Positions 364 to 35,899 of a stretch of DNA of 53,201 bases are shown here, in pieces. The first letter of the stretch is position 1, and each line of letters starts with the position of its first letter. The DNA comes from Bacteroidota bacterium. Its GTDB lineage: Bacteria; Bacteroidota; Bacteroidia; Chitinophagales; Chitinophagaceae. Both the position numbers and the translations under genes were made by a program. The notes under the pieces are model-generated. The model had not been told where the DNA came from. It saw only the letters and a program-made list of their open reading frames with translations, and made no database searches. Location of the stretch: positions 1-53,201 of the forward strand of contig JABDBX010000005.1 in the NCBI GenBank assembly GCA_013288445.1. Reading direction: 5' to 3'.

Positions 364-1107
364 ATGAAAAAAGGGTTCCTTTACATTATCCTGGTGTGCC
401 TGGTATCTGGCCGGGCGGAGGCGCAATCCTCAAAAATTGATACAGTAGCTGTAGCCATTCTCGACCGAATGAGCGCTATGATCGGCGAGCTTAACTCCTG
501 CAGTGCCACCGTGAAGTCGTGCTACGATGTCAGCAGTAATGAACTAGGCCTGGTAAAACACTCTGATGAGGAGCATGTATATGTAGGCGGCCCAAATAAG
601 CTAATGGTACGGTCTGAGGGGGATAAGGGAAACAGGTACCTGATGTATAATGGCGAAACCCTGAGCTATTATTCCTTAGATAAGAACCGCTACGCGCAAA
701 CGAAAGTGCCTGCCACTGTGATGGAGATGATAGACTATATGAACAAAAACTATGGCATCATTTTTCCAATTGCCGATTTCATGTACCCCGGCTTTGTAGA
801 TGATATACTGGCGGAGGCAAATAACCTGGTAATGCTGGGCATTACAAAGGTTGACGGCAAGGAATGCTTTCACATTGCAGGTACCACGAAAGACAAAACT
901 TTCCAGTTCTGGATAGCGGATGACGCGTTTTACCTGCCGGTAAAAATGGCGATTGTTTATACAAATAAACCGATGAACCCGCAATTTGAAGCGATATACT
1001 CTGATTGGCAGATAAATCCGAGCCTGCCTGCAAGCCTGTTTGAATTTCAGACGCCGCCAAATGCGAAGAAAATAAAACTAACCCCACTTTCCACAGCTAA
1101 AAAATGA
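364..1107 (+). CDS. Exported DUF2092 family protein
   Basis: 247 residues starting with a clear signal peptide (MKKGFLYIILVCLVSGRAEA, cleavage before Q). The mature part has the pattern of DUF2092 predicted periplasmic proteins, which have a LolA/RseB-like fold: a helix with LDRMSAMIGELNS, then strands with the segments VGGPNKLMVRSEG, YNGETLSYYSLDKNRYAQ and IADDAFYLPVKMAIVYTNKP. The related folds bind lipoprotein acyl chains or sense lipoproteins, but the role of this family is not established. It lies 48 bp upstream of the glycine-rich exported gene at 1156 on the same strand, so the two are probably co-transcribed. The start codon is preceded by A/T-rich sequence without a strong Shine-Dalgarno site. 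Confidence 0.7.
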   Translation: MKKGFLYIILVCLVSGRAEAQSSKIDTVAVAILDRMSAMIGELNSCSATVKSCYDVSSNELGLVKHSDEEHVYVGGPNKLMVRSEGDKGNRYLMYNGETLSYYSLDKNRYAQTKVPATVMEMIDYMNKNYGIIFPIADFMYPGFVDDILAEANNLVMLGITKVDGKECFHIAGTTKDKTFQFWIADDAFYLPVKMAIVYTNKPMNPQFEAIYSDWQINPSLPASLFEFQTPPNAKKIKLTPLSTAKK

Positions 1108-1155
1108 TTTCATTCTCTGGCCAAAAATGATTTTCTACTATTAAAAATTTCAGAC

Positions 1156-1947
1156 ATGAAAACCTTCAATAAAATAAAACGTACTCATATCATTTGTATT
1201 TTGTTCCTGCTGGTATGCTACTTCCCCCAAAATACTATGGCACAACGGTTTGGCCATGGCGGTGGTGGTGGTGGCCGCGGAGGCGGTGGCGGGGTACCAA
1301 GAGGCGGTGGTGGCGGTGGCCGGGATGTGGGTCATCCGGTGCAGGTATCAGGCCCCAGGGGGGGCTTTAATGGCGGTGGCCGCAACTTAGGGAACCACGT
1401 TTTCCCAACCCCGGTAGTGCGTTCCGGCCCGGCTTTTGGCATACGTCATAATGAGGGTGTATATCACCACGCTTTCGGCGGTGGCCTGCGCCCTTATGCA
1501 TATCACCCTTATCACCCTTACATATGGGGTCCATACTGGCACCCATTCGGTTTTTTTGCTGCCGCGCTTACTGCAAATGCAATAGCGATCTCCATAGCCA
1601 ACCAGCAGTATTATTATGATAATGGTGTGTATTACCAGCCATCTGGCGGTGGTTATTCGGTCGTTGCCCCGCCGATTGGCGCTGTGGTGAACTACTTGCC
1701 CGCCGGCTACCTGACAGTGCCGATGGATAATGGCTCTTATTTCTATTATGGCGGCGCTTTTTACCTCGACCAGGGCGGGTCTTACCGTGTAGTACCCGCA
1801 CCCATAGGTGCAGTGGTAACCGAGATACCAGAAGGGGCCACCGAACAGGTAATAAACGGAGAGAACTACCTTCTGTACAACAACACTTATTACCTGCCAA
1901 TTTCACAGGATGGGCAGGATGCATATGAGGTGGTGCAGGTAAATTAA
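1156..1947 (+). CDS. Glycine/histidine-rich exported protein, DUF6515-like
   Basis: 263 residues. A signal peptide with hydrophobic core IICILFLLVCYF ends near residue 29 (TMAQ). Residues about 33-75 are a low-complexity tract of Gly with Arg, followed by a His/Tyr/Pro-rich stretch (YAYHPYHPYIWGPYWHP) and a short hydrophobic segment (FFAAALTANAIAIS). The C-terminal half holds two copies of a motif: VVAPPIGAVVNYLPAGY with YYYGGAFYLD, and VVPAPIGAVVTEIPEGA with YLLYNNTYYLP. These repeats resemble DUF6515 proteins. The likely location is periplasmic or cell-surface, and the function is unknown. It follows the DUF2092-like gene by 48 bp, probably in one transcript. The GC-rich Gly tract explains a long antisense open frame, which I treat as an artefact. 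Confidence 0.65.
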   Translation: MKTFNKIKRTHIICILFLLVCYFPQNTMAQRFGHGGGGGGRGGGGGVPRGGGGGGRDVGHPVQVSGPRGGFNGGGRNLGNHVFPTPVVRSGPAFGIRHNEGVYHHAFGGGLRPYAYHPYHPYIWGPYWHPFGFFAAALTANAIAISIANQQYYYDNGVYYQPSGGGYSVVAPPIGAVVNYLPAGYLTVPMDNGSYFYYGGAFYLDQGGSYRVVPAPIGAVVTEIPEGATEQVINGENYLLYNNTYYLPISQDGQDAYEVVQVN

Positions 1948-26605: not shown

Positions 26606-27231
26606 GTGTTTTTGAATTGTTGATGGTTAAAATAGTTTTTTAACTGGCTTTTAGCCCTTTTATGCCCATATTTACTTGCTTCCTCAAAATAGTGTTTTGC
26701 CCACCGATAAGATTGAGTAACCCCTTCTCCGCACTTAAAGCAAAGGCCTAAATTGTAAAGAGCCTTCGGGTCCTTTTTCCTTGCTGCCCTTTTATACCAG
26801 AATACCGCATTTTCAAAGTCCTTTTTGACACCATTACCATAAAAATAACAGTAGCCTAAATCACGTTGTGCATCAATAAGCCCTTTTAATGCAGCCAATG
26901 AAAACCAATGAACTGCTTTTTTATAATCTTGCTTAACTAGTTCGCCCTCCCTGTAAAAGAAACCGATATTGTATTGACTATCCCTGTGCCCCTGAGCAGC
27001 GGCTTTGAGATAGAACTTAAATGCTTCTTCAGTATTTTTTGTTACACCATTGCCATGGTCGAAACAAGTACCCACATAAAATTGAGCCCTCACGTGTCCT
27101 GCCATTGCCGCTGAATACCATAGCGAAAAAATATGCTCCCAATTTTTCTTCCGCCCTTTTGTTTCAAAAACAAGTTCAAACGCGAATGTGAATCGTCTAT
27201 TTTGTTCTGCTTTGCTAATAGATTTTCTCAT
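26584..27231 (-). CDS. Sel1-like repeat protein
   Basis: 215 residues with four Sel1-type alpha/alpha repeats of about 36 residues from residue 45: AGHVRAQFYVGTCFDHGNGV, GHRDSQYNIGFFYREGELVK, GLIDAQRDLGYCYFYGNGVK and DPKALYNLGLCFKCGEGVTQ, each followed by a YKKAVHWF-type second helix. No signal peptide is visible, so it is probably cytoplasmic. Sel1 repeats bind other proteins and often serve as adaptors; no catalytic motif is present. It is the first gene of a minus-strand pair with iaaA, overlapping its start by 22 bp. A connection with cyanophycin metabolism is suggested only by position. Confidence 0.8.
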   Translation of the reverse strand: MRKSISKAEQNRRFTFAFELVFETKGRKKNWEHIFSLWYSAAMAGHVRAQFYVGTCFDHGNGVTKNTEEAFKFYLKAAAQGHRDSQYNIGFFYREGELVKQDYKKAVHWFSLAALKGLIDAQRDLGYCYFYGNGVKKDFENAVFWYKRAARKKDPKALYNLGLCFKCGEGVTQSYRWAKHYFEEASKYGHKRAKSQLKNYFNHQQFKNTCLKTFQ

Positions 27232-33859: not shown

Positions 33860-35137
33860 ATGAATTTAATTGCGGAATTAAGAGAAAGGAACCTATTGCA
33901 AGACATTATACCCGGCACCGAAGAACAATTAATAAAAGAAATGACCGCAGGCTATATAGGCTTTGACCCTACTGCCGATAGCCTGCATGTGGGCAACCTC
34001 GTACCCATAACACTGCTTATGCGCCTGCAACGCGCGGGCCATAAGCCCTACGCGCTTGTTGGCGGCGCCACCGGCATGATCGGCGACCCGTCAGGAAAGT
34101 CGCAGGAGCGCAACCTGCTGGATATGGAGAGCATCCAGCACAATTGCGATTGCATACGCAGACAGTTGGGCAAATTCATCGACTTCAACAGTTCCTCGCC
34201 CAATGCTGCCGTTATGGTGAATAACTACGACTGGTTTAAAAACTTTTCTTTTCTTGATTTCATACGCGACATAGGCAAGCACATCTCAGTAAACTACATG
34301 ATGGCTAAGGATTCTGTAAAGAACCGGTTAGAAACGGGCATGTCGTTTACAGAATTTTCTTACCAACTCATACAGGGCTTCGACTTCTTCTATTTATACA
34401 ACAACCACAAAGTGCTGATGCAAGTGGGCGGCGCAGACCAGTGGGGTAACATAGTTACCGGCACCGAGCTCATACGCAGGAAAGGCGGCGGCGATACCTT
34501 TGCTTTTACCTGCAAGCTCATTACCAAGAGCGATGGCAGCAAATTCGGCAAGTCCGAAAGCGGCAATGTATGGCTCGACAGGGAGCGTACTTCCCCGTAC
34601 CAGTTCTACCAGTTCTGGATGAAACTGCCGGATGCCGATGCCGCAAAAATGGCTCTTGTATTTTCTTTTAAGCCGGTAGATGAAATAAAGACATTGATAG
34701 TAGAACACGAAGCAGCGCCGCACCAGCGAAAGCTACAGAAGGCGCTTGCAGAAGAACTGACCATAATGGTACACAGCGAAGAAGACCTTTCCTTTGCAAA
34801 ACAGGCATCGGAAATTCTTTTCGGGCAATCGTCTATTGAGGTGTTACGCTCGCTGAATGAAAAGCAACTGCTGGAAGTAATGGATGGCGTGCCGCAGGTA
34901 ACAAGCACCAAAGCCTCGCTGGCTGAAGGCGCCGATCTTATTTCATTTCTTGCCGACAGTGGCGTATTCCCCTCAAAAGGAGAAGCAAAAAAAATGCTCC
35001 AAAATGGCGGCGTAAGCATCAATAAAGAAAAAGTGACGGGACTCGATTTTAAGCTCAGCGAAGGCCATCTGCTCAATGATAAATACATACTGGTACAAAA
35101 AGGAAAATCGAATTATACACTGGCAATATTTGGGTAG
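33860..35137 (+). CDS. tyrS: Tyrosyl-tRNA synthetase
   Basis: 425 residues from ATG 33860 (MNLIAELRERNLLQDIIPGT); the in-frame extension to 33767 is A/T-rich leader and is not part of the family. Class I signatures are present: the HIGH box as SLHVGNL (residues 41-47), the tyrosine/tRNA region YQLIQGFDFFYLY and GGADQWGNI, and the KMSKS loop as KFGKSESG near residue 234. The C-terminal S4-like RNA-binding domain begins near ISFLADSGVFPSKGEAKKML. The enzyme charges tRNA-Tyr in the cytoplasm. It precedes the Abi-type gene by 111 bp on the same strand. Confidence 0.96.
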   Translation: MNLIAELRERNLLQDIIPGTEEQLIKEMTAGYIGFDPTADSLHVGNLVPITLLMRLQRAGHKPYALVGGATGMIGDPSGKSQERNLLDMESIQHNCDCIRRQLGKFIDFNSSSPNAAVMVNNYDWFKNFSFLDFIRDIGKHISVNYMMAKDSVKNRLETGMSFTEFSYQLIQGFDFFYLYNNHKVLMQVGGADQWGNIVTGTELIRRKGGGDTFAFTCKLITKSDGSKFGKSESGNVWLDRERTSPYQFYQFWMKLPDADAAKMALVFSFKPVDEIKTLIVEHEAAPHQRKLQKALAEELTIMVHSEEDLSFAKQASEILFGQSSIEVLRSLNEKQLLEVMDGVPQVTSTKASLAEGADLISFLADSGVFPSKGEAKKMLQNGGVSINKEKVTGLDFKLSEGHLLNDKYILVQKGKSNYTLAIFG

Positions 35138-35163
35138 AATTTGGAAGAGTGGCTAAACAAAAA

Positions 35164-35226
35164 CCCGGTTTCATCACCAGCATCGAATATCTGGGAGAGG
35201 AAATACCGGGACTGCATAAATGCAGT
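35164..35226 (+). ncRNA. Candidate structured RNA / two-hairpin leader before the Abi-type gene
   Basis: CCCGGT..TTC at 35164-35172 can pair with GAA..ACCGGG at 35200-35210 (a two-base bulge), with an inner CCAG/CTGG pair at 35177-35180 and 35191-35194. A second hairpin, ACTGCA - TAAA - TGCAGT, follows at 35211-35226. The start codon of the HEPN gene is 23 bp further on. No T-tract follows, so these are not simple terminators of tyrS. The call as RNA rests on folding by eye alone. Confidence 0.4.
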
Positions 35227-35248
35227 ACAAAAGTACAAAATATAGTCA

Positions 35249-35899
35249 ATGAACAAGCAATATTTAGAAAAAGTATTTTCTTCCGAAAGAATGAGCAGGT
35301 ATTTCAACCATCATCCAGGAAATGAAACAATAGCAATAAAGCATTACCATGCTAATATTGCTCTTTCTGAAGCATTTTATCCGGTATTATCTGTTTTTGA
35401 AGTTGCATTACGCAACAGCTTGAACAGGGAACTCATTACTATGTTTAATACTCCCGATTGGCACGTACATATCCAGTCAACTCCTGGATTAAAGGATTTG
35501 AATAAAGAAATATCAACCGCACAACGTCAAATTACAAAAAGAGGGGAAAATACTACTGCTTCAAAAGTAGTAGCAGAATTAACTCTTGGTTTTTGGGTTC
35601 GTCTTTTTAACGTAGAATATGAACTCATACTATGGAAAGACCTCCGCCGTGCATTTCCATATATGCCTAAAATAGAAAGAAAAAGGAATCACATTTCAGC
35701 GCCTCTAAACAACATTCGTAATTTCAGGAACAGGGTATATCATAATGAGCCCATTGCATGGAATCTCAAATCTTTAGAAGATATTCACGCTGAGACAATT
35801 TTAGTATTGAGTTGGTTAAATAACCAACTTCCAGATTTCGTTAAAGCAAACGACCGTTTCGCAGAAACTATTAGTAAAATCAAAACAGAATTAATTTAA
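35249..35899 (+). CDS. Abi-type (AbiD/AbiF-like) HEPN protein, probable abortive-infection factor
   Basis: 216 residues, cytoplasmic, helical and basic. The opening YLEKVFSSERMSRYFNHH, the helix ALSEAFYPVLSVFEVALRNS with LNREL, and the C-terminal NIRNFRNRVYHNEPIAW are typical of Abi_2-like proteins. R160 and H165 in RNRVYH give the Rx4H motif of HEPN ribonucleases. Family members block phage growth by RNA cleavage or growth arrest when triggered. It follows tyrS in the same direction, but the 111-bp gap can fold into two hairpins and the gene is probably independently controlled. Downstream it converges with kdtA 28 bp away. No second defence gene is adjacent. Confidence 0.75.
   Translation: MNKQYLEKVFSSERMSRYFNHHPGNETIAIKHYHANIALSEAFYPVLSVFEVALRNSLNRELITMFNTPDWHVHIQSTPGLKDLNKEISTAQRQITKRGENTTASKVVAELTLGFWVRLFNVEYELILWKDLRRAFPYMPKIERKRNHISAPLNNIRNFRNRVYHNEPIAWNLKSLEDIHAETILVLSWLNNQLPDFVKANDRFAETISKIKTELI

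Follow-up and report, generated by a model that had tools for sequence, protein, structure and literature searches.

A predicted small RNA gene divergent from an Abi_2-like HEPN gene in the Bacteroidota: a putative abiF-like RNA antitoxin

Type III toxin–antitoxin systems (ToxIN and its kin) rely on a tandem-repeat RNA antitoxin that binds the toxin protein. PD-T4-5-like proteins have, to our knowledge, so far been classed as single-gene defence. The closest described counterparts of the locus presented here are the AbiF proteins and their RNAs. The C. difficile RNA RCd22 is reported to be co-transcribed with abiF by read-through, from the same strand, and to neutralise AbiFCd by direct binding, for which it needs its stems (PMC12373285). 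Similarly, AbiFr has been described as an RNA partner that binds PbAbiF and holds it inactive, and the root of Cas13 has been proposed to lie in AbiF and its RNA antitoxin. PD-T4-5 is described as a plasmid-borne anti-phage system of E. coli, of Abi and toxin–antitoxin-like character and distantly related to AbiF/D (Vassallo et al., 2022; PMC9519451); the main text of that report does not mention a non-coding RNA, a small RNA or an antitoxin RNA. Among the open-access titles and abstracts searched, none reports an RNA divergent from the gene of a PD-T4-5-like or Abi_2 protein, and Weinberg (2017) and Zilberzwige-Tal (2025) may describe such RNAs.

The window, by which we mean the whole 53,201-nt stretch of DNA that was analysed (contig JABDBX010000005.1, from a member of the Chitinophagaceae), carries a HEPN gene downstream of tyrS. 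The tyrS gene ends at 35137 and is followed by an intergenic gap of 111 bp (35138–35248), the same length as given in the preliminary description of this DNA, and then by the HEPN ORF. Residues 160–165 of the ORF read RNRVYH, the Rx4H motif (R160, H165) to which that description had drawn attention; R160, N161 and H165 do not vary among the 13 homologues of alignment A1 or the 24 rows of alignment A5. The features of the locus are listed here with their coordinates in the window.

35249..35899, plus strand: HEPN/Abi_2-like ORF, putative RNase toxin, 216 aa, with the catalytic-type motif R160..H165
35157..35222, minus strand: predicted small RNA gene, type 1a, putative RNA antitoxin, ~60–66 nt, with a 5' end probably near 35222
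35228..35235, minus strand: -7 box of Bacteroidetes type, TACTTTTG, matching TAnnTTTG
35254..35256, minus strand: possible -33 element TTG, 18 nt from the -7 box and within the start of the HEPN ORF, presumed from the promoter consensus
35205..35210, minus strand: 5' strand of stem P1, CCCGGU, from the type 1 alignment
35164..35169, minus strand: 3' strand of stem P1, ACCGGG, from the type 1 alignment
35195..35202, minus strand: conserved core UUCCUCUC between P1 and P2, which shares its CCUCU with the Rfam abiF consensus
35191..35194, minus strand: 5' strand of stem P2, CCAG; three of its four pairs change on both sides among 13 type 1 rows
35177..35180, minus strand: 3' strand of stem P2, CUGG, from the type 1 alignment
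35170..35175, minus strand: GAUGAA, 3' side of the internal loop, six columns that never vary among the 13 type 1 rows
35159..35163, minus strand: U-tract directly after the 3' strand of P1, a probable intrinsic terminator judging from the sequence

The window protein matches Pfam Abi_2 at 21.9 bits (E 2.4e-4), which is under the 25.6-bit gathering cut-off, and the PADLOC profile PD-T4-5 (PDLC04038) at E 8.2e-15, in a library that gives no curated cut-off. At E <= 0.01, Pfam Abi_2 and PADLOC PD-T4-5 each match the whole of A5 (24 members), and AbiD matches 21 of them. When A1 was compared with the AbiF of phage phiC2 by hhalign, the probability was 21% and E was 0.001. An AlphaFold2 model of the window protein, built on A5 (24 sequences), has a pLDDT of 94.8. 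Foldseek alone returned no match to this predicted fold at E <= 0.001. VIA-align, applied to Foldseek's list, placed 8vz6_A, a chain of the ncRNA-bound PbAbiF dimer, at Z 13.0 (rmsd 3.6 over 203 residues, 11% identity), a value that alone proves little since helical models without a clear Foldseek match typically reach a best Z of 14; families that VIA-align did not list may match the fold as well. The 8vz6_A match spans the whole protein and stands apart from the other rows, the next of which has Z 6.1, and the same chain also tops, weakly, a profile search (E 0.067, the next and unrelated chain having E 0.11). On the strength of these profiles and models, the window protein is predicted to be a HEPN protein of the Abi_2 superfamily, belonging to a PD-T4-5-like clade and having an AbiF-like fold.

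Folded as plus-strand RNA, the 111-bp gap reaches -26.9 kcal/mol, compared with -17.1 +/- 2.8 for shuffled sequences (z -3.51, with none of 200 shuffles as good). The minus-strand RNA folded alone is only moderately more stable than its shuffles (z -1.87, 7 of 200 as good). A tRNA-like remnant, brought to mind by the resemblance of GGAAGAGTGGC to a D-arm, was considered and discarded: neither ARAGORN, searching for tRNAs, nor Rfam at its gathering score gave any match in the window.

Of 60 related genomes, 13 contain homologues of the protein, that of the window among them, and three loci were found in the genome-contig collection; profile A1 reached 37 of 396 genomes of the order. We compared the upstream regions of 41 distinct loci. 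Dropped before counting were 3' fragments (L003, L017, L018), duplicates (L007, L023, L024, L045) and split frames (L049–L051), and matches for which no locus was made also stand outside the 41. A core of the CCUCU, CCCUG, CCCCUG or CCGCUG type, sought as fixed patterns, lies upstream of the HEPN ORF in 40 of these 41 loci; at L002 it reads UUCUUCUCCC. The sole locus lacking the core patterns, L046, has by eye a looser hairpin in which a GCCGCUG core is readable. By their core and loop letters the RNAs fall into subtypes 1a (n = 7, including the window), 1b (n = 6), 2 (n = 11), 3 (n = 14) and 4 (n = 2), with one of the 41 unassigned. At one type 4 locus (L022) two copies of the hairpin stand in tandem before the HEPN ORF, which recalls the pair of abiF motifs in RCd22. 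Four loci (L005, L001, L010, L042) have an in-frame stop in the HEPN ORF together with an intact RNA; in L001, from Rufibacter ruber CCM 8646, the stop is close to the end of the ORF.

Alignments were built for types 1, 2 and 3, which comprise 38 of the 41 loci. The type 1 stems are paired in 98.5% of 130 cells, and 7 of 10 pairs have changed on both sides; covariation is 0.529, compared with 0.218 in shuffled and at most 0.196 in slid alignments. The corresponding values are 93.9% of 132 cells, 7 of 12 pairs and 0.305 (0.159 shuffled, at most 0.083 slid) for type 2, and 98.2% of 166 cells, 7 of 12 pairs and 0.517 (0.242 shuffled, at most 0.093 slid) for type 3. These figures come from structures drawn on the same alignments that were scored, and related sequences are counted repeatedly in them, so that the events are not independent; the slid controls preserve the relatedness among sequences. 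A count of further pair types was not above the shuffles, which were as high in 83 of 500 cases for type 1 and in 292 of 500 for type 3. Stem P2 illustrates the changes most directly, CCAG/CUGG in subtype 1a being replaced by UCCC/GGGA in subtype 1b with zero unpaired cells in the helix. The hairpin at 35164–35210, which the preliminary description had recognised by its inner CCAG/CTGG pair, is the conserved part of the gap. For the small hairpin that it placed beside this one (35211–35226), a comparable stem is absent, by eye, from the 12 other type 1 sequences. Homologues lacking any conserved structure in the gap had been named there as evidence that would speak against an RNA; in so far as that comparison was run, the element is present at all but one of the 41 loci and its stems covary.

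The strand of the RNA could be read from the pairs that are not of Watson–Crick type. Such cells on the minus strand comprise 27 G-U, 2 A-C and 11 others, and on the plus strand each of the 27 G-U pairs would become an A-C mismatch, which favours the minus strand. The sequence TAnnTTTG, which we take to be the Bacteroidetes-type -7 consensus and on which our naming of the box at 35228..35235 is based, occurs exactly within the 26 nt before the core in 34 of 40 loci, compared with 118 of 11,504 control windows of the same loci, tiled over both strands with the element included. In 20 of the 34 loci the box begins exactly 27 nt before the core. The motif was first noticed in the first 18 loci, where 16 are exact; 18 of the 22 later loci with a core are exact as well. 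Five of the six loci lacking the exact box have TAnnTTTA and one has CATCTTTG. A T-rich stretch follows P1 in types 1, 2 and 4, and in most type 3 loci a distinct GC hairpin with its T-run can be made out by eye farther downstream. The absence of a T-tract had been asserted for the window locus, mistakenly: read on the minus strand, TTTTTGTTT (35163–35155) comes directly after the hairpin, which can therefore act as an intrinsic terminator of a minus-strand RNA. The wobble bias, the -7 box and the T-rich end or terminator together make a divergent small RNA gene the best reading of the element, on the strand opposite to that which the preliminary description had assumed. From these comparisons, we consider it practically certain that the RNA element and its assignment to the minus strand are real.

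These observations bear on two simpler accounts of the gap. The first is that it forms a plus-strand leader, a cis-regulator of the HEPN mRNA; this agrees with the folding of the hairpin on the plus strand also (z -3.51 for the 111-nt gap), but would turn the 27 G-U pairs into A-C mismatches and leave the promoter box and the T-rich end on the wrong strand. The second is that an ordinary bidirectional terminator separates tyrS from the next gene, for which a GC hairpin with a minus-strand T-tract would be suitable; against this, the letters of the internal loop are conserved, the promoter box stands at a nearly fixed distance, and most type 3 loci have, by eye, a separate terminator downstream. 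We rejected both on the strand and covariation evidence. A leader, including the translation-controlling one envisaged earlier, is in our estimate highly improbable, and to a plain terminator we attach practically no weight.

We then placed the RNA subtypes on a protein tree with 63 rows, of which 56 are of the window's kind and 7 are AbiF proper; 49 rows bear one of six labels, namely the five RNA subtypes and AbiF, and 14 rows are unlabelled. The partial genes L002 and L021 were excluded, one long row (L296) was flagged, and the labels of one viral and three plasmid rows were set by eye. On this quick tree the labels require 6 changes, where the minimum is 5 and the shuffled mean is 29.3, and none of 200 shuffles was as low; the five RNA subtypes alone require 5. 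Single genomes may contain several subtypes (3, 1b and 4 in G001; 1a and 2 in G031), indicating that the RNA follows the toxin and not the species. The RNA–toxin pair thus seems, from these sequences, to move as one unit. Sequence comparison establishes in this way the RNA element, its strand, its structure and its co-diversification with the toxin.

RNA models for type 1 (R1) and type 3 (R2), each used to search 298 genomes at E <= 0.001, gave 11 and 17 matches respectively. Half of the 28 are training rows and were recovered by construction, among them the window, a training row of R1 in which the model covers 35157–35216 (76.1 bits, E 3.7e-19). A HEPN sequence adjoins 18 of the 28 matches, always on the opposite strand. 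Among the 14 non-training matches, four have HEPN remains beside them, as fragments (L057, L066, L074) or in two frames (L068), and ten have none (L054, L058–L062, L075–L078). Three of these ten score below 34 bits (L059, L077, L078), and L058 lies 161 nt from a contig end at which a toxin could be cut off. One of the ten, an orphan type 1b RNA (L060), is in the window's own genome (C64:11533–11586, minus strand, 61.3 bits); the 3 kb read there contain no HEPN match. At L066 (G037:C122) the type 3 RNA is intact and the HEPN gene is cut after ~40 residues and runs into other coding sequence, as would be expected of a decayed toxin whose RNA has been retained.

The association is therefore asymmetric: nearly every toxin locus has the RNA, but the RNA also occurs by itself or next to a broken toxin. 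Decay of the toxin beside its antitoxin would be expected to produce orphan RNAs, yet they may leave room for another function. One could suppose that the element is a small RNA of mobile elements in its own right, with some other target, and is often just carried along with the HEPN gene, as the 10 of 14 non-training matches that lack an adjoining HEPN gene might suggest (L058 at its contig end and L060 in the window's genome included). Such independence fits poorly with an RNA subtype that tracks the toxin phylogeny, or with the presence of the RNA in 40 of 41 toxin loci at a nearly fixed promoter-to-core geometry. Moreover, L057, L066 and L074 retain toxin fragments, and the orphans may be remnants. 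We regard an independent RNA as very unlikely.

A type 3-like RNA at L076 (1501–1546, plus strand) has its own terminator-like hairpin, and a different ORF (842–1411, minus strand) starts 90 nt away. This ORF holds LRNALLHSF, an HEPN-like RNxxxH motif; it has one implausible weak Pfam match and no PADLOC match. To judge from the sequence, the L076 RNA may serve a second HEPN family.

An empty-site comparison, in which 22 same-genus tyrS loci were scanned with R1, gave no clean empty site. The element follows tyrS in two of the 22 (the window and G022), and a third match (L086) has 12 bits and E 0.53. Among the same-genus loci, of which up to 1.5 kb downstream was read, kdtA lies downstream of tyrS only in the window.

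We propose that the locus is a two-part, toxin–antitoxin-like module in which a plus-strand HEPN RNase would be accompanied by a minus-strand RNA of ~60–66 nt encoded directly before its gene. The small RNA would extend from its own promoter to its own terminator and would fold into two stems, P1 and P2, with the conserved core in the internal loop between them. It most likely binds the HEPN dimer and holds the dimer inactive, as in the pairs RCd22/AbiFCd and AbiFr/PbAbiF. The -7 box of the window is separated from the toxin ATG by 13 nt; across the 41 loci this distance ranges from 7 to 122 nt, the gap being measured to the start of the match in the five that have no assigned ATG. With 13 nt between box and ATG, the toxin mRNA would probably be made by read-through from upstream, and the RNA would be transcribed from its own promoter. 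TAnnTTTG stands on the plus strand between box and start in 4 of the 41 loci, and 6 others have it in the RNA region or up to 100 nt past it; at most loci, therefore, no separate promoter of this type is seen for the toxin. If an infecting phage halted transcription or removed the RNA, the RNase could then be freed and the cell arrested. We infer that the RNA is transcribed, that it binds and neutralises the protein, that the protein is an RNase and that the module serves in defence.

The same arrangement would also allow type I-like antisense control, in which the minus-strand RNA, without binding protein, pairs with the 5' UTR of toxin mRNA made by read-through. The RNA is indeed antisense to the region that a tyrS read-through mRNA would carry, and both the 13-nt spacing between box and ATG and the presence of a plus-strand TAnnTTTG in the box-to-start gap at only 4 of 41 loci are in keeping with it. 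Nevertheless, conserved unpaired core letters and covarying stems are seen, neither of which antisense pairing needs; the RNA subtype follows the toxin tree; and the relatives RCd22 and AbiFr are reported to bind protein. We consider antisense control, the main rival, to be unlikely; it may act additionally, and the two modes may coexist. By analogy with AbiF, the RNA is in our view quite probably an abiF-like antitoxin that binds and restrains the HEPN RNase. The preliminary description had offered an RNA partner that either guides or restrains the nuclease; restraint is the best-supported option, guidance finds no support, and its notion of a system of one gene plus an RNA fits the locus anatomy.

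With tblastn (E <= 0.001), the protein was found in 705 of 72,556 plasmid records and in 7 of 50,697 phage records. Plasmid and phage-contig loci were read by eye. On this reading, 8 of the first 12 plasmid loci (L277–L280, L282, L284, L285, L287) have a divergent RNA whose core is of the CCUC type, among which those of Aeromonas hydrophila and Pantoea agglomerans have type 1a cores. It is not clearly seen by eye in the other four (L281, L283, L286, L288), of which L286, an E. coli PD-T4-5 homologue (6.6e-30), has hairpins upstream. Two plasmid loci from Escherichia fergusonii and Klebsiella (L298, L299) encode longer Abi proteins and have a divergent TTGACG promoter-like pair with a 17-nt spacer and a terminator-like hairpin in front. 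Their divergent sigma-70-like boxes have 3 mismatches of 12, a plus-strand pair in L299 is closer (2 mismatches), and the RNA core differs.

Among 44 phage-contig loci, R1 or R2 reached E <= 0.001 in one (L131). Related hairpins can be seen by eye in phage contigs such as L111, L112, L113, L115, L116 and L125, and no RNA was recognisable by eye in 11 near-identical phage-contig loci (L136–L145 and L153) or in L123, L126 and L130. Viral scans with the type 1 RNA patterns gave no matches, and one with a type 3 pattern that was too loose gave at least 120 stretches. DNA like that of L127 had no near match in E. coli genomes.

We also compared the RNA with the abiF RNA family of Rfam, RF03085. Phage phiC2 has its Rfam abiF RNA at 27065–27100, on the same strand as abiF (37.6 bits). 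Two of eight AbiF-proper plasmid loci (L290, L293) have an RF03085 match on the gene's strand, at 36.5 and 32.1 bits, both below the 37-bit cut-off, and in the others a co-directional hairpin can at most be guessed by eye; recognised abiF RNAs are thus found at 3 of 9 AbiF-proper loci, all three on the strand of the gene. RF03085 was absent from the matches up to E 10 in 35130–35260 and was likewise unmatched in 14 loci including the window's. The Rfam listing for 35130–35260 has PsrR1 over the RNA (12.3 bits, E 4.7) and cHP (E 7.8), both far below cut-off. Direct membership of RF03085 was rejected, there being no match at the window locus. RF03085 was also unmatched in 198 genomes of the window's phylum, which is no proof of absence, as the controls gave no match either. 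Conversely, R2 did not recognise the phiC2 abiF RNA, its best match there (8.8 bits) being an AT-rich hairpin elsewhere. The abiF consensus, CCCGCCAAGCCUCU..GCUCAAAUCGGCGGG, has AGCCUCU in common with type 3 and with two type 2 RNAs (L013, L014), and only CCUCU with the type 1 RNA of the window. For the phage-contig RNA L111, the minus strand gives a match of 17.2 bits to the abiF core (E 0.68), but the unrelated sok has a lower E (0.35) among the matches listed; a link of L111 to abiF is suggestive only.

These comparisons lead to a wider conjecture, which we advance tentatively and think somewhat more apt to fail than to hold. PD-T4-5-like proteins would be one half of a widespread two-part system with a divergent abiF-like RNA antitoxin, extending from Bacteroidota to Gammaproteobacteria; they would form a sister lineage of the Cas13-ancestor AbiF in which the RNA has switched strand, and orphan RNAs would immunise genomes or mobile elements as anti-toxins. 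If so, one-gene entries in defence databases omit half of the system, and if PD-T4-5-like proteins generally need an RNA, constructs made without the upstream region would be toxic or misleading. The RNA types, at least three of them covarying and co-diversified with the toxin, would provide a natural series of matched RNA–protein pairs in which to follow the evolution of RNA recognition.

The module resembles known systems to different degrees. It shares with PD-T4-5 the PADLOC profile, matched by the window protein and by every member of A5; that system is presented in its original report as a gene (PMC9519451), unlike the module in the window. If our reading of the RNA holds, an RNA antitoxin adjoining an RNase toxin would be a feature in common with type III systems, from which the locus differs in its single hairpin copy (two in L022), its divergent RNA and the HEPN fold of its toxin. 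The predicted fold aligns over 203 residues with that of PbAbiF, of the ancestor class of Cas13, whose HEPN dimer is described as bound by the RNA AbiFr (PDB 8vz6), although sequence identity is 11%. With AbiF–RCd22 and RF03085 it has in common an Rx4H HEPN protein of the Abi_2 group and, directly upstream, a structured RNA with its own promoter and terminator and a CCUCU-core hairpin. In contrast to AbiF–RCd22, where the RNA is on the same strand, the window RNA is divergent; RF03085 does not match it, and the toxin has 216 aa compared with 287 aa. We conclude that the RNA of the window is a variant of the AbiF-RNA kind rather than a new kind, lying outside RF03085 as modelled and not co-directional with its gene.
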